Below are positions 2,052 through 26,037 of a stretch of DNA of 64,000 nucleotides, piece after piece. Both the position numbers and the translations under genes were made by a program. Under the pieces are notes generated by a model. It saw nothing but the letters and a program-made list of their open reading frames with translations. It ran no database searches and was not told the DNA's origin. The DNA is from Friedmanniella luteola (GTDB lineage: Bacteria; Actinomycetota; Actinomycetes; Propionibacteriales; Propionibacteriaceae): positions 2,976,001 through 3,040,000 of the forward strand of contig NZ_LT629749.1 in assembly GCF_900105065.1 (NCBI RefSeq). Direction: 5' to 3'. Numbering within the stretch: the first letter of the stretch is position 1; every line of letters starts with the position of its first letter.

Positions 2052-3553
2052 CGGAGGAGGTCAGTCGGGTTGGGCGTGAGTCCGTGCCGTTGCGCTTCCA
2101 GCAGGGCATCCTCCGCGAGCGCCTCGGGGGCACGGTTTCGGGTCTGTCGGTCGACCAGTTGGTGACGGAGGCGATGTTGGTGGTCGAGGAGTGTGCGTCC
2201 GTGTCGGCCGTCGATGCAGCGGGTGAGGCGGGCGATGATCGGTCGGCCGTTCTCGGCGACGACGAGGGCTTGGCGTTCGGGGAGCTGGCGGATGTCCTCT
2301 GGTCGGAGGATGGCGATGTCGTCGCCGGAGGTGGTGCGGCCGCCGGTCCGTCCGGTCTGCCAACTGGTGCGAGGAACCCGGGTTTGGCCGATCAGGTCGG
2401 AGATCTCCTGGTTAAAGCCGACGTCTTTGGAGCCGCCGAAGACGACGAGCACGTTGGTAAGGCCGACCAGCGCCCGGGCTTCGTGTTCGCCGAAGATCGC
2501 GGCGAGCTGCCGCCAGGTCTGGGAGGCGTAGATGAAGGAGACGCCGAGGGCGCGTTCGTTGGCCATCCGAGTCCGCAAGGTGGGCAGAGGCGCGGTGGAC
2601 GGTAGTTCGTCGAGGCAGGCGAACAGGGGTGGGCAGAGCCGCCCCCATGGTGAGGTGTTGGCCAGCTGGAGAGCGGTGTCGAGGATGTGTTCGGTGACGG
2701 CGGTCATCAGCGGGGACGCCGACGCGTAGGGGTCGTCGCGGCCAAGCAGGTAGATGGTTCCGCCGCGGCGGAGCAGGTCGGCGATGTCAGTGGCCGGCCT
2801 ACCGGGCGTGGGGGTGCAGCGGCGGCGGGTGTCGGCTTGGAAGAACAGGTCGAGCGCCTGCTGCACGGTGGTGGTGGTGTTGCCGGCGGTGCGCGGGTCG
2901 CCGTTCAGGGCCCCGTTGAGCAGGCCGTGCCAGAACGGTGCGGCGTGGGGGTGTTCGCGGAGGATCTCGGCGGGGTCGGTGGCGGCGGTGGGGTGCGCGA
3001 CCCAGCGGAGCACGTGGTCGAGGGTGCGGCCGGTCAGGGCGGCGGCGTGGAAGTAGGCCTGGATGACTTTGGCGGCTTCGCCGGCGTAGAAGCGGGCGGC
3101 GTCGTCGCCGTGGCCGCCGGCGACGGAGCTGCGGATGGTGCCGGCGGTGAACGCCTTCGCCCGCCTTTCCGCGACAATCGGGTCGACGCAGCCGGAGACC
3201 GGGTCCCACACCAGCTCCGGCAGCCCGGGCGCCAGCCCGAACGGGTCGAGCACCACACACGGCCGGCCGGCAGTTGCACGGTTGGTCCAGCTGAGGAGGA
3301 GGTCGTCGACCTTGGTCAGGGTGACCAGCGCCGGGCCGGGTGCGCCGAGCAGGGCTGGGGTGAGCAGGTCGAGGGTCTTGCCGCTGCCCTGGGGTCCGAT
3401 CACCCCGGCGGTCCGGTCGAACGGCACCCACAGCTCCCCACCCCGCGGCTCCTGCCCGCGGCCGAGCCGCCACCCCACCTGGCTCGGGTCGAACGCTCTC
3501 CCCCGACGCACTTCCAGATTCGACTTGGCTGAGAGGTTCTGCGGGTCAGCCAC
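2048..3553 (-). CDS. VirD4/TraG-type conjugative coupling ATPase
   Basis: A 501-residue ATPase of the TraG/VirD4 family, which brings the relaxase-DNA complex to the type IV secretion channel. A Walker A motif lies near residue 50 (GVIGPQGSGKTLDLLTPA). A Walker B-like stretch follows (LFACLDELPSTAPLPTLRT). The C-terminal part has the family pattern QTWRQLAAIFG, LVVFGGSKDVGFNQEISDLIG and a final LPERQALVVAENGRP. There are no N-terminal membrane helices in the protein itself; the small membrane protein encoded just upstream may supply them. The start is GTG and overlaps the upstream gene by 8 bases. All key motifs are intact, unlike the second coupling-protein gene near 14-16 kb. Confidence 0.88.
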   Translation of the reverse strand: MADPQNLSAKSNLEVRRGRAFDPSQVGWRLGRGQEPRGGELWVPFDRTAGVIGPQGSGKTLDLLTPALLGAPGPALVTLTKVDDLLLSWTNRATAGRPCVVLDPFGLAPGLPELVWDPVSGCVDPIVAERRAKAFTAGTIRSSVAGGHGDDAARFYAGEAAKVIQAYFHAAALTGRTLDHVLRWVAHPTAATDPAEILREHPHAAPFWHGLLNGALNGDPRTAGNTTTTVQQALDLFFQADTRRRCTPTPGRPATDIADLLRRGGTIYLLGRDDPYASASPLMTAVTEHILDTALQLANTSPWGRLCPPLFACLDELPSTAPLPTLRTRMANERALGVSFIYASQTWRQLAAIFGEHEARALVGLTNVLVVFGGSKDVGFNQEISDLIGQTRVPRTSWQTGRTGGRTTSGDDIAILRPEDIRQLPERQALVVAENGRPIIARLTRCIDGRHGRTLLDHQHRLRHQLVDRQTRNRAPEALAEDALLEAQRHGLTPNPTDLLR

Positions 3554-4019
3554 GGCGTCTCCTGGTTGGGTACAGGTCGGGGCGGATGATGGGGGCGTTG
3601 CGGCGGAGCCGGGTGCGGCCGAGGAGCTGCTTGGCTTCAGACCGGCTTGCCATGCCCCGCATCCGTCCCGGCCCCCACCGGCCCAGCCCGACCTTGAGCA
3701 CCACCGAAACGGCGGTGAGAACCATCAGCTCCACCACCACGATCAAGGTCAGGACAGTGTCGGCGGTGGCCAACGGGGCGGTGGTCGCGGGGAGGCCGGC
3801 GGCGGCGTCGCCGGTGAGGAGGCCGGGCAGACTGGTGAAGAGGTCGGCCCGGTCGGGGAAGGCCCAGCCGGCACCGGCGATGCGGTTGGCGACCGCCCGG
3901 CCCAGGTGCGCCGCCAGCGCGGCGATCAGCAGAACCGCCACGACGACACCGAGGGGCAGCTCCCACGTCCACGGGTAGGGGTCACGGCGACGCGCCTGTT
4001 GGCTGGAGGTTCCGCTCAC
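3546..4019 (-). CDS. membrane protein preceding the coupling protein
   Basis: A protein of about 157 residues with two membrane helices, one near the N-terminus (WELPLGVVVAVLLIAALAA) and one mid-protein (TVLTLIVVVELMVLTAVSVV). A basic C-terminal tail contains GRWGPGRMRGMASRSEAK and ends RRNAPIIRPDLYPTRRRRG. Helices split from the ATPase in this way are typical of actinobacterial VirD4 systems, so I infer that it anchors the coupling ATPase. A GTG start at 4019 is preferred, because the 28 extra residues of the longer frame (to 4103) look non-native; neither start has a strong ribosome site. Function is inferred from context. Confidence 0.6.
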   Translation of the reverse strand: MSGTSSQQARRRDPYPWTWELPLGVVVAVLLIAALAAHLGRAVANRIAGAGWAFPDRADLFTSLPGLLTGDAAAGLPATTAPLATADTVLTLIVVVELMVLTAVSVVLKVGLGRWGPGRMRGMASRSEAKQLLGRTRLRRNAPIIRPDLYPTRRRRG

Positions 4020-4238
4020 AGCACCCTGAAGGCGACAGCACAGGCTCCGGCGGTCACCCGGCAGGTCGTGTGTTTCAGAGGTTGGCGACCCCTCAGATCT
4101 CAAGATGTAATGGTGCGTGCCTGCGGCGCAGCTGAAGCGGCCGACATCGCGCGGACCAGGCGACCCGGCCTCCCCCAGTCGACCCGGAATGCACTGCGGA
4201 ACGGCGCCGTTGACACAGCCCTGATCTAGCCTCGCACC

Positions 4239-4673
4239 GTGACCCTTGAACAGGTCGGCGCCGGGAACTGGCGGGCATGCCTAGCTCTTGAGGTGGATGA
4301 GTCGCAGCGGCGCATTGTTGCGCCGGTGGCCTACTACCTGGCTTTGTGTGCCTACGGGGAAAGTCCGTGGGGACCCCTCGCCGTCCGGGACGGGGCGGAG
4401 GTGGTCGGTTTCGTGATGTGGGGCATCGATCCGGAAGACGAGAGCTTTTGGATCGGGGGACTGCTCATCGACCGCCGACATCAGCGACGCGGTTGCGGTC
4501 GATCGGTAGTTGCTCAACTGCTCGAGCGGGCTGCCGCTGAAGGGCATCGAGAGGCGGGCCTGAGCTACGACCAGCAGAACACCGTGGCTCGGTCGCTCTA
4601 CGCGAGCATGGGCTTCGTGGAGACGGGCGAACTCGCGGATGACGAGATCGTAGCCCGCAAGCAGCTGAAATAG
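4239..4673 (+). CDS. GNAT N-acetyltransferase, diamine-acetyltransferase-like
   Basis: A 144-residue GNAT enzyme that would transfer acetyl from acetyl-CoA to an amine. The N-terminus (NWRACLALEVDESQ) resembles SpeG/BltD-type polyamine acetyltransferases. The core has the CoA loop RRHQRRGCGRSVV and the C-terminal NTVARSLYASMGF motif. The start is GTG. It lies between the two minus-strand halves of the conjugation block but on the plus strand, and probably entered as cargo. The exact substrate cannot be read from sequence. Confidence 0.8.
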   Translation: MTLEQVGAGNWRACLALEVDESQRRIVAPVAYYLALCAYGESPWGPLAVRDGAEVVGFVMWGIDPEDESFWIGGLLIDRRHQRRGCGRSVVAQLLERAAAEGHREAGLSYDQQNTVARSLYASMGFVETGELADDEIVARKQLK

Positions 4674-4797
4674 CGCTCGGGGGCCGGCCCTGCAACAGGG
4701 CCATCTGCCGGTCACCGAAGAGGCGGTGAATCTCCGGGCGCTCCGGTCGATTGCAGTCGGGAAGGCGGTGCCGTGGCTCCGGACGGTCACCGCACGA

Positions 4798-5955
4798 TCA
4801 GGATCCTGAGGTGAGGTTGGCGGCGCGCCAGATCTCGAAGATGTGGTGGGACGGGCCGTCGGCGTAGCTGAAGTGGCCGATGCCGTCGCGGGTGCTGCGG
4901 GCTTCGATGGTGGTCTTGGTGGCGGGGTTCCAGACGAGCATGACGTGGCCGATCTGGTTGGATCCGAGGTAGGAGTCCCAGAAGACGAGGTCGCCGGGTT
5001 GTTCTTGGCCGAGAGGGATGCGGGTGCCGTTGCCGGCGGCGAGCCAGCTCCGTTGGGCGGCGGCGGTGCGGGGCATTCGGATGCCGGCGCGGGCGTACGC
5101 GGTCTGGGTGAGGCTGGAGCAGTCGTAAGCGCGTGGGCCGTTGGCGCCCATCACGTAGGGTCCGCCGGCGCGGCTGGTCGCGAACCTGAGCACGGCGGCG
5201 ACCCGGCCGGCGGTGAGCGGCGGCACCGGCCGACCGCCGGTCGCGCGGGTGGTGGTGCCGCAGTGGTGGGGGTTCCCATAGACGGTGCCGCCGCCGTAGG
5301 CGGCGGCGTAGAAGAGGACGTCGTTGGTGTACCAGGCCGGCCGGTTGTACGCCCGCAACGCCCGCCGCACCCCGGCCGCTCCTTCGCTGACACCGGATCG
5401 GGTCAGGTAGTTCGCGGCCGAGAACACGCTGTCGGCGTCGCTGCCGATCTCCGCCCGCCCGTCCCGGTTGCCATCAACACCCATGGCGGCGAAGGTGGCG
5501 GGCAGAAACTGCATCAACCCCTGAGCCCCCGCCCAGCTCACCCGGTTGTTGCGGCCGTGGCCGGTCTCGGCCATCCCGACCCCAGCCAGCAGCGTCCACG
5601 GGATCCGGTACCTCTTGGCAGCGGCCCGGTACAGCCGCTCGATCCTGGCCGGAATGGGCAGTGGAGGGTTGTGCAGCGAGTCCTGCCGCGGCCGTCCGGG
5701 CGGCGGCAGCGGGAAACCGATGCCGCCCTCCCCCGCGCCGCGGGCCACCGACGGCGGCAGCACCGGACGCGGCGACTCGGTCGGCGGCTTCCCGGGCGGC
5801 GCCGCGCTGGTTGCGCCGGCCGCTGCTGCCCGGTCGCCGCACGAGATGGGGGCGACCGCGGCGGGGACGAGGACGGCCGCAACGGCGAGGACCATCGCCA
5901 GCGGCAGTAGGAACAGGACGGTCAGCGCGATCCCGACCCAGCCGGCAACCTTCAT
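4798..5955 (-). CDS. bifunctional cell-wall hydrolase: lytic transglycosylase plus NlpC/P60 peptidase
   Basis: A 385-residue exported protein with the VirB1-like job of opening peptidoglycan for the conjugation channel. A signal-anchor helix (residues about 5-30) is followed by a Pro-rich linker. Next comes an SLT-type transglycosylase domain with the catalytic Glu in AGVGMAETGHG and the AQGLMQFLPATFAAMG motif. The C-terminal NlpC/P60 domain has the catalytic Cys in RAYDCSSLTQTAYA and the catalytic His in NQIGHVMLVW. All catalytic residues are present. It sits 27 bases downstream of the VirB4-like gene on the same strand. Confidence 0.92.
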   Translation of the reverse strand: MKVAGWVGIALTVLFLLPLAMVLAVAAVLVPAAVAPISCGDRAAAAGATSAAPPGKPPTESPRPVLPPSVARGAGEGGIGFPLPPPGRPRQDSLHNPPLPIPARIERLYRAAAKRYRIPWTLLAGVGMAETGHGRNNRVSWAGAQGLMQFLPATFAAMGVDGNRDGRAEIGSDADSVFSAANYLTRSGVSEGAAGVRRALRAYNRPAWYTNDVLFYAAAYGGGTVYGNPHHCGTTTRATGGRPVPPLTAGRVAAVLRFATSRAGGPYVMGANGPRAYDCSSLTQTAYARAGIRMPRTAAAQRSWLAAGNGTRIPLGQEQPGDLVFWDSYLGSNQIGHVMLVWNPATKTTIEARSTRDGIGHFSYADGPSHHIFEIWRAANLTSGS

Positions 5956-5982
5956 GCCTCTGCCCCTCCTCGTCTTTCTGGC

Positions 5983-7551
5983 TCAGGCGTGTTGAAGGGC
6001 GTCGTTGGTGTAGGTGAGGGCGTGCTCGAGCGGGTGGAGGATGGTCTGGACCTTGTACAGCTGGTCCCCGACTCCCCACAGGGCGCGGCCTTTGCCTTGC
6101 ATCGCCCAGCCGGTGACCAGTTGTTGGGCGATCGGTCCGAGGCCGAGGAGCCGGTCGAGGTCTTCGGCGACCGCGGCGTCTTGGCCGTGCAGGACGGTGA
6201 TGTCGGCCAAATGGAGTAGGTCCTTGGCGATGGCGACGGCCTGGGAGCCGGTGTCCCCGGCGGACAGCGGGTCGGAGGGTTTGTGGCCGACGGCGATCTG
6301 GATGTCGCCGGTGCTGCGGGACAGCCGCAGGTCGGCGTCGAAGCTCTTCACCGCCTCCACCCCGAGCCGCAGCTGCTTCCACGACTCGTCCCGCACCACA
6401 ATCCGCACATCCCCCGGTGCGGCCGTCTCCCGGATGCCGCGGCCCCAGCTGTTCAAACACAGCAGCGCGATCCCGACCGCCTCGTCGCCGAGCGGTTCGA
6501 GCCGGGACAGGCTGAGCGACTGAATCGGGGCCTGCCAGTCCACCGCGATGGCGGTCGGGCCGTCGAACAGCCCGGCGAGAGCGCCGGAGACGAGCTGGCC
6601 GAGGGAGTCCCGCAGCAGCCGGGTCTCATCAAGGAACTGCCGCTCGGTCGCGTAACGGCAGTCCCGAACCAGCTGCGGGGTCGGGTTGTCGAGGAGCCGC
6701 CACAGCTGCGGGATGGTGGTCTCGGTCATCCGGGTGGCCGCATGGTTGTAGCCGGTCAGGTCGGCGAGGGCGGTCTGCACGACAACCTCGTCGGAGGGCC
6801 CGAACGGGACCCGATGCTCGCCAAGGCGTTGGGAACCGACCAGGCCGCGGACCAGGGTGAGCCAGCGGCCGAACACCACCGCCGCCCGCGACCGCGCCTC
6901 CCCTGCGGACAGGGTGTCCCAGCCGTCGGCGAGGGGGCCGAAGGCGAGCGGGTTGATCCGCACGTTCAGGCCGGGACCGATGGTGAACGGTTCGACTCCG
7001 AAGGCCCGGCAGAGCGGTTCGTACTCGTCCTTCGGGTCGCCGAGGATGAGGGCGCGGTAGCCGAAGTCCATCATCCGCAGCAGGAACGCCTTCACCGTCG
7101 CGGACTTCCCGCGGCCAGGTTTGCCGAACACGAACATGTTCGGGTTGGTGACCGGCACGTGGTCGTTGAGGACCCAGCCGAGCGGGTCGGCGTAGAAGGA
7201 GCCACCGGACAGCAGGTCGACACCCATCTGCGCCCCCGACGGCGGCAGGCCGGGAGCGGCTATGAACGGCCAGCACACTGGCGCCTGGTCCGAGGTCATC
7301 CGCCACGTCGACACCGGCGCCGACGCCGCCGCCCACCCCCGACCCGACCGCATCGCCCCCCGAGCGGGGAACGGATTGAACATCCGACCCTCCCGCCCCA
7401 CCTCGCTGGCCGGGGGTGCGGCGGGGAGGGTGTGGCCGAAGTCCGCGAGCAGCCGGGACACCGACCGACCGGCGCCCGGCGCGTACACCCGGCGCGGATG
7501 TGCGGACTGGGAGCGGACGGACCGGGTAGACGGGGGGTGGGGGCGGGTCAT
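5983..7551 (-). CDS. VirB4/TraC-like conjugation ATPase
   Basis: A 522-residue ATPase that powers assembly of the type IV secretion channel. The Walker A motif is MFVFGKPGRGKSATVKAF near residue 120. Downstream are the DPKDEYEPL and PGLNVRINPLAFG signatures and a Walker B-like RIVVRDESWKQL. The C-terminal HGQDAAVAEDLDRLLGLG and GRALWGVGDQLY stretches match actinobacterial VirB4-like proteins. I chose the ATG whose TGA-overlapping position (ATGA) couples it to the SCO6880-family gene; the longer upstream frame is Arg/Pro-rich noise. It works with the SCO6880-type protein, which supplies the membrane-proximal part. Confidence 0.88.
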   Translation of the reverse strand: MTRPHPPSTRSVRSQSAHPRRVYAPGAGRSVSRLLADFGHTLPAAPPASEVGREGRMFNPFPARGAMRSGRGWAAASAPVSTWRMTSDQAPVCWPFIAAPGLPPSGAQMGVDLLSGGSFYADPLGWVLNDHVPVTNPNMFVFGKPGRGKSATVKAFLLRMMDFGYRALILGDPKDEYEPLCRAFGVEPFTIGPGLNVRINPLAFGPLADGWDTLSAGEARSRAAVVFGRWLTLVRGLVGSQRLGEHRVPFGPSDEVVVQTALADLTGYNHAATRMTETTIPQLWRLLDNPTPQLVRDCRYATERQFLDETRLLRDSLGQLVSGALAGLFDGPTAIAVDWQAPIQSLSLSRLEPLGDEAVGIALLCLNSWGRGIRETAAPGDVRIVVRDESWKQLRLGVEAVKSFDADLRLSRSTGDIQIAVGHKPSDPLSAGDTGSQAVAIAKDLLHLADITVLHGQDAAVAEDLDRLLGLGPIAQQLVTGWAMQGKGRALWGVGDQLYKVQTILHPLEHALTYTNDALQHA

Positions 7552-9059
7552 CGGGTGGCTTTGCGGGTGAGGCTCACGCCGAGGGGCACGGTGGAAGCGG
7601 CGAACGCGACGTCGTGGGCCAGATCCAGCCGCAGCGGGGCGAACCCGGCCCGGCGGACGGCGGCGTCGAGCCGGCGGCCGTACTCGGCGACCCGGGCGGT
7701 CTTGGGGACGGTGACGGTGGCGACGGCGTAGGGGCGGGTCAGGCAGCTGCCGCGGGCCAGCTGCACGTCGACCCCGCGGGCTTTCGCGGTCTCGGCGCGC
7801 TGCCGGGCCCGCACCTTCATCCGCGCCCGGGCGCGCAGCTCCTCCCCGAGGTCGGCGGCCCACTCGTTGTTCGCGGTGCGGCGATCAGCCACCGACTGGG
7901 CGAGGATCGGGAACGCGACCAGCAGGCTGCGCCGCTCCCCCGCCTCCCCGGGGGTCAGCACCGGCGCCAACGCACCCAGAACCGCGCCTTTGGTGGGCAG
8001 CTGGAGGGTGACGCTGACCGAGTTCCAGGCGTCGTGGCTGTAGTGCCGGGCGACCGGGTCAGCACCGGATGGGCCGGCCAGCGCCCACGGCACGTCCGCG
8101 TTCACCCCGGAGTCTTGTGTGTGGGCGGCGAGGGCTTCGACGATCCCGGCCCGGTCACCGGGTGCGAACCCGGTCCGGCAGACCAGGGCGAGCTGCGGGG
8201 ACGTCAGCCACGCGACCTGGGTCATGCCGAGACCACCGCTCAGTTGCGCCTCCACCTCCCCCATCAGCCCGTACAGCACCCGCGCCCTACCCTCCAACCG
8301 GCCGCCGGCCTCCCGCGCCGGCCGGCCCATCCGAGCCTCGGGGACCACCAGGGTGACGAACGTCTCGGTTCGCACCGACGCCCCGGTCAGGCTCTGCCGG
8401 AGGTCGTCGTTCACCCGCCGCGACAGCTCCGGTCCGCCGGGCTTGCGGTGCTTACGGACCCACAGGTCGCGTTCGGCGCCGTCGTCGGGCACCGTCCGGA
8501 CAGTGAACAGCACCTCCTCGATCAGCTCGGTCCGGGCGGCTAGGTCGAGCAGTTCCGCTAGACCGTGGCCTTGACGGTCTCGATCGGCGCTGTCGGCCAT
8601 CCCGATCCCGGGATGGGTGACCTGCGCGGTGACCGCCCACGTGCTGAGCGCGTGGTTCTGCGCCACCGCCACCCGGACTTGGTGGGGGCCGTGCGGTGGC
8701 CCGTCGTGGATCTGGACGGCCTGCAGCACCCCCGGCAGGTCCGCCTCCGCCAGATCTTGGGCGGCGCCGGTCGCGGCGCGGCTCCGCCACCGCGTCCACC
8801 CGGCCCGACGGCCCAGCAGGAACGCCAGGCTGGCCAGCAGCCAGCCCGTTGCCGACCGGCCGCGGACCGGCACCGCCACCACCACCAGCGTCAACACCCA
8901 CACCCCTGCCCCGGCCAGCGCGGCGGTCCAGGCGCCGCGCTGCACCAACCCGAGCACCGGCAGCGCGGCCACCGCCAACAGCACCAGCTGCCAACCCTGC
9001 AAACCGAAGAACCAGCCAATCCGGTCCCGGTGGTACTCGCTGTACGTCGCCACCACCAC
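7548..9059 (-). CDS. SCO6880 family conjugation protein
   Basis: A 503-residue protein of the SCO6880 family, found beside VirB4-like ATPases in actinobacterial conjugation loci. Two N-terminal membrane helices (WQLVLLAVAALPVLGLV and WVLTLVVVAVPV) are followed by a long soluble region with GRLEGRARVLYGLMGEVEAQ and ending near PLGVSLTRK. It has no P-loop of its own. It resembles the N-terminal half of a split VirB4. The start is GTG, and the stop overlaps the VirB4 start by 4 bases. Confidence 0.85.
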   Translation of the reverse strand: MVVATYSEYHRDRIGWFFGLQGWQLVLLAVAALPVLGLVQRGAWTAALAGAGVWVLTLVVVAVPVRGRSATGWLLASLAFLLGRRAGWTRWRSRAATGAAQDLAEADLPGVLQAVQIHDGPPHGPHQVRVAVAQNHALSTWAVTAQVTHPGIGMADSADRDRQGHGLAELLDLAARTELIEEVLFTVRTVPDDGAERDLWVRKHRKPGGPELSRRVNDDLRQSLTGASVRTETFVTLVVPEARMGRPAREAGGRLEGRARVLYGLMGEVEAQLSGGLGMTQVAWLTSPQLALVCRTGFAPGDRAGIVEALAAHTQDSGVNADVPWALAGPSGADPVARHYSHDAWNSVSVTLQLPTKGAVLGALAPVLTPGEAGERRSLLVAFPILAQSVADRRTANNEWAADLGEELRARARMKVRARQRAETAKARGVDVQLARGSCLTRPYAVATVTVPKTARVAEYGRRLDAAVRRAGFAPLRLDLAHDVAFAASTVPLGVSLTRKATR

Positions 9060-9159
9060 TCACACTCCTTCGTCCTCGTGCCTTGTTCTCGTGACTCGTT
9101 GTTCCTGGGCTGGCCCGCCTTCGTCTGCTGCGCCTGAGCCTGCGGCGTGCCGGACTCTT

Positions 9160-10638
9160 TCAGACCGGCACGATCGGCACCGAAGCCGCTGCCCCGGCTG
9201 CGCCTTCCGCGGCCCCTGCGCCTGTTCCGCCAGCGGCCGGACCTGGTGGACGTCTTGGTGGTGAGGCCGACCCGCCGCCACCCGGTCCGCTGCCACCACG
9301 TCCAGCGGGCGACCCCTCCGACCGAGGACCTCCGCCGGCCGCTGGTGAGTCCCGATGGTCGGGCGCGCTGCCCGGCTCGTCCTGCCCCAACCCGCCATCC
9401 GTTCCGTCGTCGGCCTCGGGCCGGTCGTACTCGCTAGAGACGTCCGGATTGTTGGGGTGGTAGCTGTGATGGCCAACGCTCATCTGGTTGGTCAGGTCCG
9501 ACCCGACGGCGGTGGCGGACGCCGCCGTCTGCCGTGCGGCATCAAGGCCCGCGGCCGCGAGACCAGCGGCACCGCCGCCCGCGCCAAGGGCCAAAGTGCT
9601 GGCGGCTTGGCTGAACCGGGCGTCGGTCGCCTCACCGGACGCCGCCTCCCCCGACGACCGGCCGTCACCCCCACCAGCGGCGGCGGCGACGCCGTCGCCG
9701 GCACTGCTGCCGCTGCGCCCGGACAGGAAGCCGCCGACACCGTCGGCAGAGGCGAGGCCGGCGCGCAAGGCGGCGCCGGAACTGGTGGTCGGGTCGACGA
9801 AGGCCAGCAGCTTGAACAGCGCGAGCGGGGCGAAGCAGGCGACCACGATCAGCAGCACCCCCGGCAGTGCGGTGCCGACCGCACGTTCGACGCTGTCGGC
9901 GCGGCCATAAGCCACACCGTTGGTCATCTGCACCCCCACCCCCAGCATCAACACCATCAGCACTGGGGTGAACGCTGCGGCGTGGAACCAGCGCAGGCTC
10001 TTCCAGAACCAAGTTCGGCCGGCGTCGGCGACCAGCCCGGCGGCCATCGCCGGGGTCATCGCCGCCAGCACAATCAGCGCTCCCGCCCGGGTGATCATCA
10101 CCAGCAGGTGCCCGATCGCCGCCAGCCACAGCAGCAGTCCAAGCAGCCCGAGGACGGTGGCCACCGTGGCCTCGGTGACGTGCGCCACGTCCAGCTCGGT
10201 GAACGGCTGCCACGCCGCCCAGCTGTCCACCCGCAGCAGGTTGCGCATCAGGGCCCGGCTGATCCCGCCGCACGCGGCGACGACCGCGGCCCCGTAGACC
10301 AGCCAGCCGGCCCACACCACCACGAACTTCGCCGACCCAATCAGGGCGGTCGCCAAACTCTTCCCGTCACGGCGCAGCGCGGTCACACCGAGCTGGACCA
10401 TCAACATGACCAACACCAGCACCCCGGCCAGCCAGAAGGTGGTCGCATAGATCGCCGCGCCGGGCCCGTCCGGAGACAGGTCCGGGGTGAGTAGGCCGTC
10501 GACGAAGCGGAGCGCCAGCCGCAGCACCCACAGCCCGGCGTTCCACAACCCCAACATGGCCGTCGTCCACGCGTCCGCCGCTACCTTGCCCGCGCTGTCA
10601 GCCAGCCACTCGAACGGTGAAGGCACCTCCGGAACCAT
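9160..10638 (-). CDS. polytopic conjugal transfer membrane protein, TrbL/VirB6-like
   Basis: A 492-residue protein. The first ~330 residues hold six to eight hydrophobic helices, including FWLAGVLVLVMLMVQLGV, GLLGLLLWLAAIGHLLVM and VLLIVVACFAPLALFKLLAF. The C-terminal third is a Gly/Ala/Ser-rich soluble tail ending in AAASVPIVPV. This shape matches TrbL/VirB6 proteins, which form the inner-membrane part of the channel. The ATG at 10638 is chosen because helices begin soon after it and an AGAGGG site lies just upstream; the longer frame adds a Cys/Gly-rich stretch that does not look native. Confidence 0.8.
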   Translation of the reverse strand: MVPEVPSPFEWLADSAGKVAADAWTTAMLGLWNAGLWVLRLALRFVDGLLTPDLSPDGPGAAIYATTFWLAGVLVLVMLMVQLGVTALRRDGKSLATALIGSAKFVVVWAGWLVYGAAVVAACGGISRALMRNLLRVDSWAAWQPFTELDVAHVTEATVATVLGLLGLLLWLAAIGHLLVMITRAGALIVLAAMTPAMAAGLVADAGRTWFWKSLRWFHAAAFTPVLMVLMLGVGVQMTNGVAYGRADSVERAVGTALPGVLLIVVACFAPLALFKLLAFVDPTTSSGAALRAGLASADGVGGFLSGRSGSSAGDGVAAAAGGGDGRSSGEAASGEATDARFSQAASTLALGAGGGAAGLAAAGLDAARQTAASATAVGSDLTNQMSVGHHSYHPNNPDVSSEYDRPEADDGTDGGLGQDEPGSAPDHRDSPAAGGGPRSEGSPAGRGGSGPGGGGSASPPRRPPGPAAGGTGAGAAEGAAGAAASVPIVPV

Positions 10639-10649
10639 CCCAGCGCCCT

Positions 10650-11528
10650 CTACCGGTCCTCGACCGGAAGATCGGACCAGACAAGCTCGGCCCAGGGGCG
10701 CCAACCCGCACGTCGGCTGGCCTCGCTGCCCGGCCACGTCGACGGCGCCACCGCCGGCGGCGCACCGGGGGCAACCATCCACCGCCCCAACTCTGCAGTT
10801 CCGTCACGGGTTCGGTCGGTGGCCGACGGCGGCCGGTCGGGGTGCCACTGCTGGCGTTCACAGTGGCCGAAGCCCATCCGCGCCTCCACGACGACGGTGG
10901 CGCGCACCTCGAGCAAGACGCAGGCCAGCACCCAGTCCGGGCCGTCCGTCCCCTTCACCAGCCCCGCCGCCGGGACCGCCGCCACCTCACCGGCTGCGCC
11001 GAGCTCCGTGCTCGCGCCGGCCGCGGTAAGGAACGCCCGCACATGCCCGGTCAGCTCCCACCCCTCCGCCGGCACCGCTCCCGGCAGCACCCACGCCTCA
11101 TGGATGGCAGCTGTCCTGGGCAGCGACATCTGCTCCAGCACCCTCGCCACGAGGGCGGCGAGCTGGCCGACCGCACCCTCCGGGGTGCGCGGGAACCCCG
11201 AGGGCACCCCCGCCGGTCCCACCACCGACGCCGGCGGCACCTCGACGACCCCGGCGGTCTGCGGCACCGTCGTGGTGGGTCGGCTATCGGCGGGCCGGAC
11301 CGAGGGCATCGGCTCGGCGGCGATGGCGTCACGCCTGCTCGAAGCAGTGCTGCTGCTGGTCTGCGGCGATGCTGCTGGCAGGACCTGCTGCTCGGTGAGC
11401 TCGCGGCCGACATCAGCCGGCGGTGGTCCCAGCTCCACCACCAGGACCACGGTGACGATGGCCAAGGCGAAGGCCGCCAGGAGCAACCGGCGGTGCTGAC
11501 GGCGCCGCGTGATGGGTGGGGGCGTCAT
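10650..11528 (-). CDS. membrane-anchored conjugation-operon protein, unknown function
   Basis: A 292-residue protein with an N-terminal signal anchor (LLLAAFALAIVTVVLVVEL), a disordered Ser/Thr/Pro linker of about 70 residues and an outer globular domain beginning near FPRTPEGAVGQLAALVARVL. The domain ends with a hydrophobic strand set (WVLACVLLEVRATVVVEARM) and a Trp-rich tail. The single helix plus extracytoplasmic domain recalls VirB8-like proteins, but I see no diagnostic motif. Its ATG overlaps the stop of the two-helix gene in a 4-base ATGA coupling. Confidence 0.6.
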   Translation of the reverse strand: MTPPPITRRRQHRRLLLAAFALAIVTVVLVVELGPPPADVGRELTEQQVLPAASPQTSSSTASSRRDAIAAEPMPSVRPADSRPTTTVPQTAGVVEVPPASVVGPAGVPSGFPRTPEGAVGQLAALVARVLEQMSLPRTAAIHEAWVLPGAVPAEGWELTGHVRAFLTAAGASTELGAAGEVAAVPAAGLVKGTDGPDWVLACVLLEVRATVVVEARMGFGHCERQQWHPDRPPSATDRTRDGTAELGRWMVAPGAPPAVAPSTWPGSEASRRAGWRPWAELVWSDLPVEDR

Positions 11529-11854
11529 TGGGGCGCCGCAGCGGAAGGCTGCGGGTTTCCGCTGGTGTTGATGCAGCCGGAGGCGAGGATGGACTGGAGC
11601 ATGCCGGGCAGGACCAGGTAGGCGATGGCGGCGATGAAGACGACGACGATGCTGATGACGCCGACCCGGGAGGCATGGGTCATGTTGAACAGCCGCCCGG
11701 CGACGATCGCCCCCACCGCCACGATCACCGCAACCAGGAACAGGATCCCGACCCCCCAGAGCACGTATCCGGTGATCTGGTCGACGTAGACCTGCGCGTT
11801 ACCCGGCGCCACCGGACACACCTCCAATGGCACCAACCCGATGTGGGCAGTCAT
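11525..11854 (-). CDS. small two-helix membrane protein, VirB2/TrbC-like candidate
   Basis: A 109-residue protein with two membrane helices (VLWGVGILFLVAVIVAVGAI and VGVISIVVVFIAAIAYLVL) joined by a short RLFNMTHASR loop, and with two cysteines flanking the helices (VCPVAP and ASGCINTSG). Size and topology fit the pilin-like VirB2/TrbC slot of a type IV secretion locus. This is a topology argument, not a motif match. Start and stop are fixed by ATGA overlaps with both neighbours. Confidence 0.6.
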   Translation of the reverse strand: MTAHIGLVPLEVCPVAPGNAQVYVDQITGYVLWGVGILFLVAVIVAVGAIVAGRLFNMTHASRVGVISIVVVFIAAIAYLVLPGMLQSILASGCINTSGNPQPSAAAPQ

Positions 11855-12720
11855 CGCTGATTCCCTTCGCCAGCCGCGAGAAGTGAGTGGATCTGCCGGG
11901 CGGCTTCGAGCAGCGGCGCCGGTAGCGGCGTGGAGTCCAAACCGTGCAGCGCCAGCCGCCGGTCGTGCGGAACCACGACCAGCCGGCCTGCCGCCTCGAG
12001 CCGCCGGAGACCGGCGCCCCGGCTGCCTTTCAGCGCGGTCGGCCACCTGCGGTAGGCGGGGCCGACAACCGCCGCGACCGCGACCGGACCCAGAGCCGAC
12101 AGCACCACCTCCAGCTGACGCAGCCCCGGCACCGTCGCGACGGCTACCGCCACCGCCGGTGCGTCGCCACGAATTTGGTCGGTCAGCCAGCAGATTGTGT
12201 CCAGCAGCTGCTCCGTCCGCCACCCGGCGTCCAGGACGGTCAGCGCAAGCTGGTCGCCCGATGGCGGCGAGGGCACGTCCTCTGGTCGGATGACCCCGCT
12301 GCTGGTGCGCTGGATGATGACGTCGCCGCGGGTCCCCTCCGCCCAGCCTGACGGCTTGACGCCGAGCTCGGCGGTGGTGGCGGCCGCCAGACCCGACGCG
12401 GTGGACGGGCAGCATTCGACCACCCGGGCCGGCCCGTCGGCGGTGCTGGCCAGAGCCAGCGCCACCGTCGACGCGCCGCACGACCCGACACAGCCGGCCA
12501 CCGTGACCACCCGCTCCCCATCCTTGGGTGTCCATAACGCCTTCCGCTGCTGGGGCGAAGCTGAGGCGTCAATCGACGATGGGATCTGGAACTGGCCGTC
12601 CGCGACCGCCTCCCAGGCGCGGCGCAGCTCCGCCACCCCCACTGCCACCGGCCGAGGGCCGTGCCCTCGCCGCCCGCTCGAGCGCCGACCCTCGAGCGGT
12701 GGCGTAGCCCGGCCGGTCAT
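11851..12720 (-). CDS. ParA/MinD-like protein with a degenerate P-loop
   Basis: A 289-residue protein with the fold pattern of MinD/ParA/CpaE ATPases: VVTVAGCVGSCGASTVALAL, ADGPARVVECCP, LALTVLDAGWR and a final VVVPHDRRLALHGLD. The Walker A lysines of the family (KGGVGKT) are replaced by Gly-Ser-Cys-Gly-Ala-Ser, so nucleotide hydrolysis is doubtful. Such proteins accompany conjugation and Tad loci in actinobacteria. It is translationally coupled at both ends. I infer a structural or positioning role. Confidence 0.6.
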   Translation of the reverse strand: MTGRATPPLEGRRSSGRRGHGPRPVAVGVAELRRAWEAVADGQFQIPSSIDASASPQQRKALWTPKDGERVVTVAGCVGSCGASTVALALASTADGPARVVECCPSTASGLAAATTAELGVKPSGWAEGTRGDVIIQRTSSGVIRPEDVPSPPSGDQLALTVLDAGWRTEQLLDTICWLTDQIRGDAPAVAVAVATVPGLRQLEVVLSALGPVAVAAVVGPAYRRWPTALKGSRGAGLRRLEAAGRLVVVPHDRRLALHGLDSTPLPAPLLEAARQIHSLLAAGEGNQR

Positions 12721-13040
12721 GAGGCACGCCCGTCGAGGGCGCGACGCCGGTACGCCAGCGCCGCCTGCAGCTCCGCCGGCGTGAACGCCGTCAGCGCCCG
12801 ACGGGCCGCCTGCACCTCTCGCAGCTCGGTCATGCAGCCGTCCAGCCGGTAGATCGCCTCGTCCTCTCGGCTGGCCACCTCGAACAGCCGAGCGATCTCC
12901 GCCGTCGACCGCCCCACGTCCTCGGTCACGGTCGTGCCGGAACCGACCATCGGGCGCTCGGTCGACTTCTCATCTGTCACGCTCGGCGTCACCTCCACCA
13001 ACCGAAGGGGCGCCACACCTGCTCGGTGGTCACCGGTCAT
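12717..13040 (-). CDS. small conserved hypothetical protein, probably coiled
   Basis: A 107-residue protein. The C-terminal two thirds are predicted helical (TAEIARLFEVASREDEAIYR, then MTELREVQAARRALTAFTP). It has no signal peptide or known motif. The ATG at 13040 is chosen because it forms the same 4-base ATGA overlap with the upstream gene as the rest of the operon. Function unknown; co-transcription with the conjugation genes is the only clue. Confidence 0.55.
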   Translation of the reverse strand: MTGDHRAGVAPLRLVEVTPSVTDEKSTERPMVGSGTTVTEDVGRSTAEIARLFEVASREDEAIYRLDGCMTELREVQAARRALTAFTPAELQAALAYRRRALDGRAS

Positions 13041-21788: not shown

Positions 21789-22392
21789 GTGCTGATCGGC
21801 TATGCATGGGTCTCCACTGACTGGCCAGGACCTCACCGCCCAACGCGACGCCCTCGCCGACCTCGGCGTTCAACCCGACCGGGTCTACGCCGACCACGGC
21901 CTCAGCGGCACCAACCGTGACCGGCCCGGACTCCGCCAGGCCCTCGCCGCCTGCCGCAACGGCGACACCCTGGTCGTCACCAAGCTCGACCGGCTCGCCC
22001 GGTCCCTCCCCGACGCCCGCGCCATCGCCGACGAACTCACAACCAGCCAGGTCAAACTCAACCTCGGCGGCTCCGTCCACGACCCCACCGACCCCGTTGG
22101 CCGGCTCCTCTTCAACGTGCTTGCCATGGTCGCGGAGTTCGAGGCCGACCTTGCCCGCATGCGCACCCGGGAAGGCATGAAGGTCGGCCGCGCCAAAGGG
22201 CGCCTTCGCGGCAAGCAACCCAAACTCAGCCCCCGCCAGGAGGCCCACCTCGTCAGCCTCTACCACGCACGCGAGCACACCGTCGGCGAGCTGTTCCGGG
22301 TCACCCGGTCCACGGTGTATCGGGCAGTGCGTCGAGCGTCTCCGCAAGAACTCAAAGTCGGTTCCGGTCTCGAGCCGCTAGGTCCAAAATGA
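21789..22392 (+). pseudogene. serine resolvase/invertase, frameshifted after the catalytic motif
   Basis: The frame from the GTG reads VLIGYAWVST, the start of a serine recombinase. One extra T near 21829 then shifts the frame, and the rest continues elsewhere: GQDLTAQRDALADLGV, TLVVTKLDRLARSLPDA, VAEFEADLARMRTREGM, and a C-terminal helix-turn-helix (TVGELFRVTRSTVYRAV). The catalytic Ser is cut off from the body, and the conserved Arg two residues before it is Trp. The stop overlaps the ATG of the next gene (ATGA). Confidence 0.8.
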
Positions 22393-23735
22393 GCGGCGAC
22401 ATCCTAGAGACGATGGCTGCGGGCATGACAGGTCGGTTTTGGTGGCTACGCAACGGTGTTCCACAGCAGCCCCCCACGAACGGCCACATCCGCCGGAACG
22501 AGGACGGCTACTGGGTCGTCGAGGTCGAGGGTTGGCGCTCAATGGAGAACGGCACGGAGTCCGACGACGAGCGCTACCCGGATTCCATGATGGGAGTGCT
22601 TGGTAAGGGCACAGTCTTCCTATCTGACCGACGGCGGCTCACCGACTTCTCGTTATGGTCCGGCCAGCGAATTCATGTCGTCCGTTCGACCTTCGAGACC
22701 GCTGCCACAGGCCTCGACGTGAACACTGTGGAAGCCGACGGCATCATCGAGGCCGAGATTCTGTTCCCGAACCAGAACCCCTGGGACCGGTCAGAGCGAC
22801 CTGACTGGCGCTATCGCGATGCGGACGAGCCGCTTGGACGAGGCGCATCGCTGGACCTTCCTACAGCCGAGGCTACGAGGCTGGCCATCGGGGATGGAGT
22901 CACTCTGACTGTGCGGCCGACGTGGTGGTCAGACCGAGACATCGAACAGATCCGGATCAATCCAGCTCTGAGCCTGAAGCTCTCGGCCGCCGAACCCAGG
23001 CCAACGGCCGAACTAGTCGAGGCGTTCGAGTGGATGCAGGACCTGATCGGGCACTGCTGGGGCGGCCGGGTCCTTCCCGTCCCCGGGGCCAGCAAGGTGA
23101 ACTCGGTCCAGGTGGAGCCGGGGCGCTTCTGGTCTCAGCGCCTGTTCAAGCACCACCACGTCCAACTGGCTGACCTGTCTCACCCGTTCCCCGCAGTGCA
23201 CCTTCCCGACCTAGGCGGTCCGCGAGCATTTGTTCGGTGGGTAGCCCTCTGCCGACACTTCTCCCGAGCTACGCGAGCAGTGTCCGAGGGTCTCTACGTC
23301 GGGGCGAGCGCCGAGACGAGGCTGCTCAACGCCATGGCTGCCATCGAGTACTGGGTGAAGCGCCACGAAGGCCGACCCGACTGGGCGAAGGTCTGGAGTA
23401 CGGGACCCGTCAATCCGATGCACGCCCTCATTCGCCACCTCAAGCCAGCGTTCAAGCCGTGGGTCCGTGACGGAGCGCCGTTCAGCCAGCGGATCTGGAA
23501 CGACTACAACTGGCTAAAGCACAACCCCGAGTTCGAGGTCGACTACACGCTAGTCCGAAGGTTCACCTGGGCGGCCGAGACGATGCTGCTCGCCGACCTC
23601 CTCAACGAGGTCGCAGGCACAGCCGTCCCCGGCAACCGACTCGCGGCGCACCGCTGGCAGCTGCGCGAGACGGTGCAGGAGCTGTTGCGCGACAAAAGCC
23701 GCTCGGCTCCGCCTTCGAGATGGACATCACCGTGA
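22389..23735 (+). CDS. ApeA-like protein (N-terminal ApeA domain, C-terminal helical HEPN-like region), putative phage defence
   Basis: A 448-residue protein. The N-terminus (GRFWWLRNGVPQQPPTNGHI, then EDGYWVVEVEGW) follows the ApeA N-terminal domain pattern: a Trp-Trp-Leu turn, a Pro-rich bend and short strands. The C-terminal third is all helical, with RLLNAMAAIEYWVKRH and IWNDYNWLKHNPEF as the most HEPN-like parts. The canonical Arg-x4-6-His RNase motif is not clear, so catalysis is uncertain. ApeA proteins act in abortive infection against phages. It is translationally coupled to the broken resolvase and is followed by a possible nuclease gene. Confidence 0.55.
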   Translation: MSGDILETMAAGMTGRFWWLRNGVPQQPPTNGHIRRNEDGYWVVEVEGWRSMENGTESDDERYPDSMMGVLGKGTVFLSDRRRLTDFSLWSGQRIHVVRSTFETAATGLDVNTVEADGIIEAEILFPNQNPWDRSERPDWRYRDADEPLGRGASLDLPTAEATRLAIGDGVTLTVRPTWWSDRDIEQIRINPALSLKLSAAEPRPTAELVEAFEWMQDLIGHCWGGRVLPVPGASKVNSVQVEPGRFWSQRLFKHHHVQLADLSHPFPAVHLPDLGGPRAFVRWVALCRHFSRATRAVSEGLYVGASAETRLLNAMAAIEYWVKRHEGRPDWAKVWSTGPVNPMHALIRHLKPAFKPWVRDGAPFSQRIWNDYNWLKHNPEFEVDYTLVRRFTWAAETMLLADLLNEVAGTAVPGNRLAAHRWQLRETVQELLRDKSRSAPPSRWTSP

Positions 23736-23971
23736 CGGCGACCCACCTTGCGACGATGGCCTGCCGCCGCTAGCGCGACTGGCCGGTTGGACTGCCGATG
23801 GAGGAGCCGATGATGCCGACCCTAAGAAGCTAGCGGCAGTACCGACGTCGACGCCAGGCGCCGTAGCACCTAGTGCCGACCTCGGATCTGCCCGAGTCGG
23901 CCCGTCGCCGCCGCCCGAGGGGTGTGGAAAGACATCTGTATATGACACGGCGCCCGCGCTGAAACGTAAAG

Positions 23972-25132
23972 TTGCTCCGACGACGGGAGCGGACCATCGA
24001 CTGGGTCGGCCAGAAGCCCACGAACCACCAGGGCTGGGTGACGGTGGCCGCCCAGCGGATCCGTGATGTCCTCGAGCAGGAATACGCCGTCCTCCGGCGC
24101 GAGGTCGAGGCGCGACTCGCCGAGTACTACTTCGAAAGCAGCAGCGACCGATTCAACATCTACCCCCACATCACCACCGCCGCTCTGCGGCAGCTCACTG
24201 ACTCCGGTGAAGTGGTCGCAGAGGAAGGTGCGACCCGCGGAAGCTCCGTAATCCCCACCATCCACTTCTCGGAGACCAAGGGGCGAGCTACCAACATCAA
24301 CCGCGCTGCAGCCAGGAAGCGACTGCTCTACGCCCGGTTCCGGAGCTGGTCGCAGGCCAGCAGCCGGTACCCGCGCGGCCAGATTGGACCGGCAGGTGAG
24401 GCCGCCCTGCGGGCGGCTGTGATCCGCTCGCAACAGGTCAACCCGTTCTTCGCCGACGCTGGCGAGGTCGCCGAACAGTTCGGGTACCGCTTCGATGGCC
24501 CTCTCGACAGCGGCGGGTTCGTCCTGTCCCCCGGTCCGACAGCCATGCCCGTTCCTGTCGCAGTGCTGATCGAGATGAAGAACCTGCGTACCTGGCTCTA
24601 CGCGAAAGATCCAGAGGTGTGGCAAGTGCTACGCAAGGCTCAGCGCCTTCAACTCCACGACCCCAGCCTCAACGTCTTCCCGGTACTGGTCTGCCGACGC
24701 GCTCACGCCCAAGTCCGATGGATGGGCCAGCAACTAGGGTTCATGGTCATCGAGACCAAGGCCAACTTCATCGGCACAGTCGACGAGCGAGACGCTCGAG
24801 AGGTCCGCACGGAACTGCAGTTCATCGACCTCAAGGTGGGAGCAGAACCGAGCAAGGCAATGATCAAGACCTTCGCCGCCACGATCCCCCGGTGGGCAGC
24901 CCACTACGCCAGCACATGGCGTACCCGCTGCCACGACCCCTCCTTCGCCGACCCGATGGCCGTCCTGGCCAGCTCCCGCGACGATGCTGAGCGGGATGAT
25001 GCGATGGAAGAACTACTCGAAGCATCCGAGGCGCTCGATCTGCCGGGTTGGCGGCTCAACGACTACCGACCAAGTCGCGACGACCAAGATGACGTGGACG
25101 AAGACGACATCGATGAGGACGTACCCGGCTAG
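23972..25132 (+). CDS. hypothetical protein with a possible PD-(D/E)XK nuclease core
   Basis: A 386-residue soluble protein. The N-terminal half has a winged-helix-like segment (ITTAALRQLTDSGEVVAEEG, then SVIPTIHFSET). Mid-protein, PVPVAVLIEMKNLRTWLYAK contains a strand with Glu-x-Lys, as in PD-(D/E)XK nucleases, and NVFPVLVCRRAH and LGFMVIETKANFIG could be the next core strands. The C-terminus is very acidic (DDQDDVDEDDIDEDVPG). The start is TTG, since a stop lies just upstream. It follows the ApeA-like gene at 236 bases and may be its partner. Function is inferred. Confidence 0.5.
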   Translation: MLRRRERTIDWVGQKPTNHQGWVTVAAQRIRDVLEQEYAVLRREVEARLAEYYFESSSDRFNIYPHITTAALRQLTDSGEVVAEEGATRGSSVIPTIHFSETKGRATNINRAAARKRLLYARFRSWSQASSRYPRGQIGPAGEAALRAAVIRSQQVNPFFADAGEVAEQFGYRFDGPLDSGGFVLSPGPTAMPVPVAVLIEMKNLRTWLYAKDPEVWQVLRKAQRLQLHDPSLNVFPVLVCRRAHAQVRWMGQQLGFMVIETKANFIGTVDERDAREVRTELQFIDLKVGAEPSKAMIKTFAATIPRWAAHYASTWRTRCHDPSFADPMAVLASSRDDAERDDAMEELLEASEALDLPGWRLNDYRPSRDDQDDVDEDDIDEDVPG

Positions 25133-25195: not shown

Positions 25196-26037
25196 GGTGA
25201 CGCTGCCCCCCCTCGAGGTGCCTCTCGACCTGGCTGTCCGCCCGTTCGGGCGGAGCCGCTGGACCGGCTGTCCGGCTCGAGCGCCGATGACCCGTTCCTG
25301 CGGCTGGCCGCTGGCTGGCTGGTCGGGCACCCGGCGAACACCGCGACCACCTGCCGCCGCGACCTCGAGGCCTGGGCGAGGTGGTGCACCCATCTCGGGG
25401 TGCACCCGCTCGCCGCGGAACGGTACCCTGTCGACCTGTGGGTCCGTCACCTCACCACCACCCCGCAGCCCCGGACCGGCCGACCGGCGGCGCCGGCGAC
25501 GGTGGCGCGGAAGCTGTCGGCGCTGTTCGGGTTCTACGACTACGGCGTCCACGACGCCCAGGTCCTCACTCACTCCCCCGCCGCCTCGGTCCGCCGGCCG
25601 CGGGTGTCGGACGAGTCGCAGGCGGTCGGGCTGACTGCCGATGAGCTCCGTCTTCTCCTTATATATGCAGCACAGACTCACCTAGGTCGCTGGCGCTGGT
25701 CTCGCTGCTCACCTTCTGCGGGTTGCGGATCTCCGAAGCGCTCAACGCTGAGGTCCGCAACTACGGCCACGACCACGGCCACCGCGTCCTCAAGGTCATC
25801 GCAAGGGCGGCAAGACCGCCCGCGTCGCCCTCGCCACCGGTCGTTCGGGCCCTCGACGACTACCTGGCCGGCCGCACCACCGGCCGCATCTTCGTTGGCC
25901 GCGATGGCGAGAGCCGCTACAGCTACAAGACGGCTAACGAGCAGATCGCCCGGCTCTGCCGCTCCGCCGGCCTCCCCGCCGGGGTCACCCCGCACAGCCT
26001 CCGACACTCCCACGCCACCGAGTCACGGTCCCGCTAG
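25196..26037 (+). pseudogene. tyrosine recombinase, frameshifted and truncated by repeat copy B
   Basis: The N-terminal SAM-like part is in one frame (FLRLAAGWLVGHPANTATTC, then ATVARKLSALFGFYDYGVHD and LTADELRLLL). The catalytic part continues in another (LLTFCGLRISEALNAEVRN, with the first catalytic Arg; then AGVTPHSLRHSHATE, with the His-x-x-Arg box). Frame is lost near 25680-25700. Right after SHATE the frame runs into TAGCTG, the first bases of the structured repeat, so the segment with the final His and the nucleophilic Tyr is missing. The start is approximate. Confidence 0.8.

Follow-up and report, generated by a model that had tools for sequence, protein, structure and literature searches.

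In a 64,000-nucleotide stretch of contig NZ_LT629749.1 of Friedmanniella luteola (the window), two open frames were analyzed, which a preliminary description made from the letters alone had proposed as a two-gene defence unit of an ApeA-like protein and a possible PD-(D/E)XK nuclease. The frames themselves were confirmed: gene 1 (22389-23735, + strand) is complete and encodes 448 amino acids (aa; P0001), and gene 2 (23972-25132, + strand) is likewise complete and encodes 386 aa (P0002). Our analysis indicated that they are probably accessory genes that were acquired separately and lie side by side in a decayed resolvase/integrase island, and not one dedicated system, gene 1 being of the ApeA family and gene 2 coding for a plasmid-type DNA-binding nuclease. 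Judged from the alignments, the unusual point is a fixed substitute motif across a whole ApeA branch.

The ApeA-like protein and its substituted motif

The FWWL and Pro-rich opening and the helical C-terminus noted before were present in the gene 1 protein. Its residues 18-253 (22440-23147, + strand), mostly beta, matched ApeA N-terminal domain 1 (Pfam PF18862, ApeA_NTD1) with 25.7 bits against the curated cut-off of 25.5, and with 27.2 bits in the whole-genome scan. Relatives of gene 1 were found in six other genomes among 293 of the order (21-27% identity, E 2e-11 to 2e-27); ApeA_NTD1 was above cut-off in all six, and HEPN_Apea (PF18739) was sub-threshold in four. Among the relatives tested from the class, ApeA_NTD1 was above cut-off in 10/10 and HEPN_Apea in 4/10, two with R-x4-H and two with Y-x3-K-H. 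The HEPN_Apea scores of relatives were 37.5 bits for L046 and 26.5 bits for L053 (L numbers denote the fetched loci) against a cut-off of 24.4, others lying below it or giving no match. Class-wide, profile A2 of the gene 1 family matched 16 of 394 genomes, own genome counted, and PF18862 itself was present in 29; on plasmids, no ApeA was found in searches with the gene 1 protein and L046. When the family was compared profile to profile with five PF18862-bearing relatives having the canonical HEPN motif, a match of 99.7% over 411 columns was obtained, in which the C-terminus was covered. The structure predicted from 12 sequences was confident (predicted local distance difference test, pLDDT, 82.3; predicted template modelling score, pTM, 0.84), its N-terminal half being rich in beta strands and its C-terminal half helical. 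On the PF18862 score, just above cut-off, and the profile-profile match, the ApeA-like identity proposed earlier held, and gene 1 aligned with ApeA relatives from end to end. Compared with ApeA (PF18862 + PF18739; the ApeA/BMEI1217 family, Anantharaman 2013), gene 1 is alike in its N-terminal domain above cut-off, in domain order and in a helical C-terminal domain aligned to HEPN with E320 and H378 retained, and its branch is alike in living as a single gene without a conserved partner; it differs in having Y-N-x2-K-H in place of the canonical R-N-x3-H.

HEPN RNases, ApeA included, have an Rx4-6H motif according to the accessible part of PMC3710099, whose Table 1 gives "Yes" for this motif in ApeA/BMEI1217. 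Gene 1 is without Rx4-6H, and Y stands in the aligned R column. The motif at the HEPN position, YNWLKH (23505-23522, + strand; residues 373-378), lies where canonical ApeA relatives have RNxxxH, and it was placed opposite RNDLAH in the profile-profile comparison with the five R-x4-H relatives. Y373, K377 and H378 were invariant in 12/12 aligned sequences of the gene 1 family. A motif census was made of the 31 ApeA_NTD1 places found with PF18862 in the 394 genomes of the class: 13 were Y/F-x3-K-H (the window and one open reading frame of the L049 locus included), 16 were R-x4-H, and two were unreadable (L079 truncated, L087 unmatched). No mixed form was seen among the 31 places. In a maximum-likelihood tree of 33 proteins, 17 K-H rows and 16 R rows were split by one branch with a support of 100/98, and the split persisted with the motif masked (support 99). 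The PADLOC candidate defence family PDC-S58 matched all five R-x4-H relatives tested, whereas no meaningful match was obtained on the Y-x3-K-H branch; among the six proteins tried there, that of the window had none up to E=10, those of L046, L048, L049 and L004 had none, and that of L006 reached just E=0.077 on PDC-S58.

We tentatively propose, a little short of an even chance, that gene 1 represents a large unannotated actinobacterial ApeA branch in which R-N-x3-H changed to Y-x3-K-H once (or the reverse) and was kept since, and that it may be a functioning effector whose chemistry differs, as with Lys plus Tyr for Arg or with a non-RNase activity, and not a dead enzyme. HEPN families without R exist, Parep1/8 being named in the accessible part of PMC3710099, so that loss of R alone is not unheard of. 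No earlier report of the Y-x3-K-H motif was found in searches of an open-access library, which is no proof that none exists. Rx4-6H is the usual mark by which HEPN RNases are recognised, and the Y/F-x3-K-H branch makes up 13 of the 31 ApeA_NTD1 places in one class; if active, it would reveal a second construction of a HEPN active site and enlarge the list of candidate defence genes, and if inactive, it would reveal a conserved non-catalytic use.

Substrates, triggers and phage defence are matters that we infer for both genes. Gene 1 would be a sensor-effector, whose beta-rich N-terminal domain may sense an infection signal and, on that signal, release the C-terminal HEPN domain; the released domain would then act on RNA and stop the infected cell. 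As to the signal, a title cited in PMC13405049 has deoxydinucleotides activating ApeA. Because the catalytic R is Y and K adjoins H, cleavage would need a changed active site or would give way to RNA binding.

Both ApeA types were seen in L049 (7875-12603), Y-x3-K-H on the + strand and R-x4-H on the - strand, with a frame for an HU-type DNA-binding domain between them. Three species of one genus (L057 7924-8163, L058 8388-8627 and L059 8059-8298) shared an 80-aa C-terminal ApeA piece that was identical in all of them and bore the K-H motif; a full ApeA frame was not seen in any of the three stretches.

The gene 2 family

The gene 2 protein had all the features reported for it, namely a winged-helix-like start, a strand with IEMKN and an acidic tail. 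The winged-helix domain (24026-24268, + strand; residues 19-99) was recognised from the predicted structure and PadR/LmrR/RTP-type matches, the PD-(D/E)XK-like core (24383-24775, + strand; residues 138-268) carries E143, D179, E201-x-K203 and Q218, and the acidic C-terminal tail covers 25061-25129 (+ strand; residues 364-386), with shorter acidic tails in L011, L012 and L018. The TTG start at 23972 is weak; in relatives the protein begins some 15 residues later, where gene 2 offers no convincing start codon. Among the 10 family sequences, E143, E201 and Q218 were invariant, and D179 and K203 were kept in nine, L014 being the exception. The structure predicted from six sequences (pLDDT 78.8, pTM 0.77) consisted of a winged helix and an alpha-beta core, with E143 within helix 138-152, D179 immediately ahead of strand 181-185, E201 in strand 196-202 and K203 directly behind that strand, which agrees with the residue order of PD-(D/E)XK enzymes (E, D and E-x-K on helix, strand and strand).

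With this model, Foldseek ranked MspJI first and also listed AspBHI, Cap4 and NucS (best E 5e-3). In VIA, 10 of 50 rows fell on residues 126-315, all of them nuclease entries, which we take to be PD-(D/E)XK enzymes: VC1899 and NucS (Z 8.5 each), EndoMS (8.3 and 8.0), Cdn1 and AF1548 (7.7 each), FokI (6.8 and 6.5), BstEII (6.7) and the R.BspD6I small subunit (6.5). The match to 2vld_B had a root-mean-square deviation of 2.6 over 107. Given the retention of four catalytic-type residues, a confident model and these nuclease-domain matches, the PD-(D/E)XK assignment was upheld. NucS/EndoMS, MspJI/AspBHI, Cap4 and Card1-like nucleases share the core matched by the structure of gene 2, but their sensing domains are other than its N-terminal winged helix, and they have no detectable sequence similarity to it. 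A viral model, A7KUX4, matched gene 2 over most of its length (E 1.4e-4). No family match was given by Pfam, NCBIfam or PADLOC (PADLOC up to E=10), with one sub-threshold PHROG (0.059), and no solved structure related by sequence was found.

Relatives of gene 2 were found on 10 plasmid records (30-43% identical, best E 3e-57), the hosts being Mycobacteroides (5), Gordonia (2), Mycolicibacterium, Mycobacterium and Saccharopolyspora. They were also present in two mycobacterial genome contigs, in one other of the 293 order genomes and in two others of the 394 class genomes, and no other genome among 198 of the host's family had one. The accessions of five relatives were mentioned in none of the open-access papers searched. 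These data suggest that gene 2 belongs to a small but real, unnamed and mostly plasmid-borne family of predicted winged-helix and PD-(D/E)XK-like nucleases, the fold having moderate support. The winged helix would target DNA and the core would cut it, and this cutting may serve to compete with incoming DNA or to defend against it.

A 56-aa fragment match of the L012 relative was seen in two M. abscessus phage records. In phage phiGD24-3 (L090, 2989-3285), the + strand carries 56 aa of the P0002-family N-terminus, facing annotated gene 91 on the other strand.

The two genes in their island

The broken resolvase and broken recombinase said to flank the pair were verified by split frames and by PF00239 and PF00589 matches. 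The serine resolvase remnant (21789-22392, + strand) is frameshifted near its N-terminus, with GQDLTAQRDAL... read in the frame next to that of VLIGYAWVST, and PF00239 matched its second piece (21802-22392) at 2.5e-32; its stop codon overlaps the start of gene 1 as ATGA (22386-22395). The tyrosine recombinase remnant (25256-26037, + strand) is frameshifted over two frames, PF00589 matching 25723-26037 at 3.8e-7 and the upstream part lying in the other frame. The G+C (guanine plus cytosine) content was 62-66% for most of 22.2-25.2 kb, compared with mostly 68-72% just outside. Both genes, which occur in one copy each in the 4.7-Mb genome, look like real genes, with relatives elsewhere at significant E-values. 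Given the recombinase remnants, the low G+C and both frames intact, the earlier observation can be relied on, and the surroundings are those of island cargo. No convincing island-end repeats were found, and the sole RNA gene found in the window was a tRNA at 61.7 kb. A phage origin was rejected, as neither protein matched phage records or viral contigs.

The fetched loci were searched with profiles of both families, and the two were together in the window only, in 0/30 other ApeA loci and 0/10 other P0002-family loci (L009-L013, L015, L016, L026, L027 and L028, of which L010 and L015 are near copies). Since the families did not co-occur in the other loci searched, the two-gene unit was given up on the ground that the preliminary description had itself laid down, while both fold predictions survived. 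The rejection took into account this lack of co-occurrence, the 236-nucleotide gap between the genes (23736-23971), in which neither a sigma-70-like promoter nor a terminator-like site was found, and the lack of a conserved partner in either family.

The pairing with a nuclease-like gene had also been called new, which is weaker than stated in the light of PD-lambda-3. This E. coli abortive-infection system served as a control for abortive infection in PMC13190303, and the review PMC10952713 lists it under PD-(D/E)XK nucleases, as far as the accessible parts of both go. In PADLOC, its component B (model PD-Lambda-3_B) corresponds to a HEPN protein of the Ymh type; as the system joins Ymh HEPN and PD-(D/E)XK, HEPN with PD-(D/E)XK is not new in kind. 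The HEPN protein of the window is ApeA and not Ymh, and neither window protein matched PD-lambda-3 components A and B, or any other PADLOC model, up to E=10. In L012, from M. abscessus plasmids, a gene 2 relative stands beside a Ymh HEPN gene whose product is matched by PD-Lambda-3_B with 241 bits, yet the two are convergent there.

ApeA is reported to act alone in phage defence, and a true two-gene unit, in which the nuclease would cut phage DNA to short deoxynucleotides that activate the adjacent ApeA sensor, which in turn shuts the cell down, is highly improbable. The same strand, the short gap free of terminator-like sites and the intactness of both genes between broken recombinases would agree with it, as would the Mrr_cat nuclease gene 153 bp downstream of a Y-x3-K-H ApeA in L056, the HEPN-type component and PD-(D/E)XK of PD-lambda-3, and the deoxydinucleotide activation named in the title cited in PMC13405049; but the zero co-occurrence in 30 + 10 other loci and the unrelated genes beside gene 2 relatives on plasmids argue against it. 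It is also improbable that resolvase and ApeA form the real unit, a mobile element in which translation of a HEPN effector is coupled to that of a serine resolvase and gene 2 is a bystander. Of the 31 distinct ApeA loci, only two had an adjacent resolvase, that of the window is frameshifted, its relatives have varied genes after them, and resolvases are extremely common (at least 5000 plasmid records match), against which stand the ATGA overlap found both in the window and in L024 (10086-10092), though the resolvases are 38% and the ApeAs about 22% identical, and an 8-nucleotide overlap of a resolvase with the start of the Ymh HEPN gene in L012 (4598-4605). In the accessible part of PMC7157771, Tn3 resolvases lie beside toxin-antitoxin genes, one of them HEPN-MNT; the Tn3-family transposons with such passengers resemble the window in having an effector gene beside a resolvase on a mobile element, and the window differs in that no antitoxin was seen, ApeA stands in place of a type II toxin and the resolvase is broken.

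For gene 2 alone, a plasmid regulator or partition-associated protein that uses a nuclease-like fold for DNA binding and does not cut is rather unlikely. The winged helix, the mostly plasmid-borne family, a relative in L010 that is divergent from a ParA-type ATPase gene, and the loss of D and K in the L014 relative would fit such a role, but E143, D179, E201 and K203 are kept in 9/10 family members, the window included, and parA is about 3 kb away on the L013 plasmid and the ATPase gene about 8 kb away in L012.

Several points weigh against the preferred reading of two separate genes, a substituted ApeA and a nuclease. For gene 1, the ApeA_NTD1 score is only 0.2 bits above cut-off, no match to HEPN_Apea was obtained up to E=10, and Foldseek with the whole model gave no PDB match at E<=0.001, VIA likewise giving nothing useful. 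The tree is unrooted, which allows either direction of the motif change, and it has long branches, about which the program warned. For gene 2, no PDB match at E<=0.001 was given by Foldseek, and in VIA the highest Z, 8.5, is only a little above the Z of 7-8 that the tool quotes as common background, so that the fold is supported by residues, topology and match list agreeing with one another. Many ApeA loci had flanks of only 1.5 kb on each side, the L027 contig is 5.9 kb long and a contig end is 380 bases from the beginning of L028, and thus a more distant partner or a rare pairing could be missed. The same strand and the 236-nucleotide gap still allow co-transcription of the two genes.

Neighbourhoods of both families

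Plasmid neighbourhoods were read from five of the 10 plasmid records with gene 2 relatives. The neighbours varied: a ParA-type ATPase and a resolvase in L010, a similar resolvase in L009, pentapeptide proteins in L011, Ymh HEPN and a resolvase in L012 and L027, and a Schlafen AlbA_2 protein in L016. No conserved partner of the family was found among the loci read. In L016 (9974-12250), the P0002 relative continues in frame into the Schlafen AlbA_2 gene, and its C-terminus looks frameshifted.

Around the Y-x3-K-H ApeA genes, no partner conserved in at least three of 14 loci was found beyond a resolvase family (three loci) and one family shared by L022, L052 and L053. A Type ISP methylase gene lies beyond the resolvase-ApeA overlap in L024, which is from the same family as the host, a BrxC/D-like ATPase is near the ApeA in L021, and a HATPase protein with weak REase_II matches is near it in L048. 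TmtA is directly upstream of the ApeA in L056, the locus with the downstream Mrr_cat nuclease. Such neighbours speak for a defence role of the Y-x3-K-H branch, though by association only.

The L056 genes (2680-12845) stand in a row on one strand, as a TmtA-like frame of 1716 aa, the Y-x3-K-H ApeA and an Mrr_cat frame of 1098 aa.

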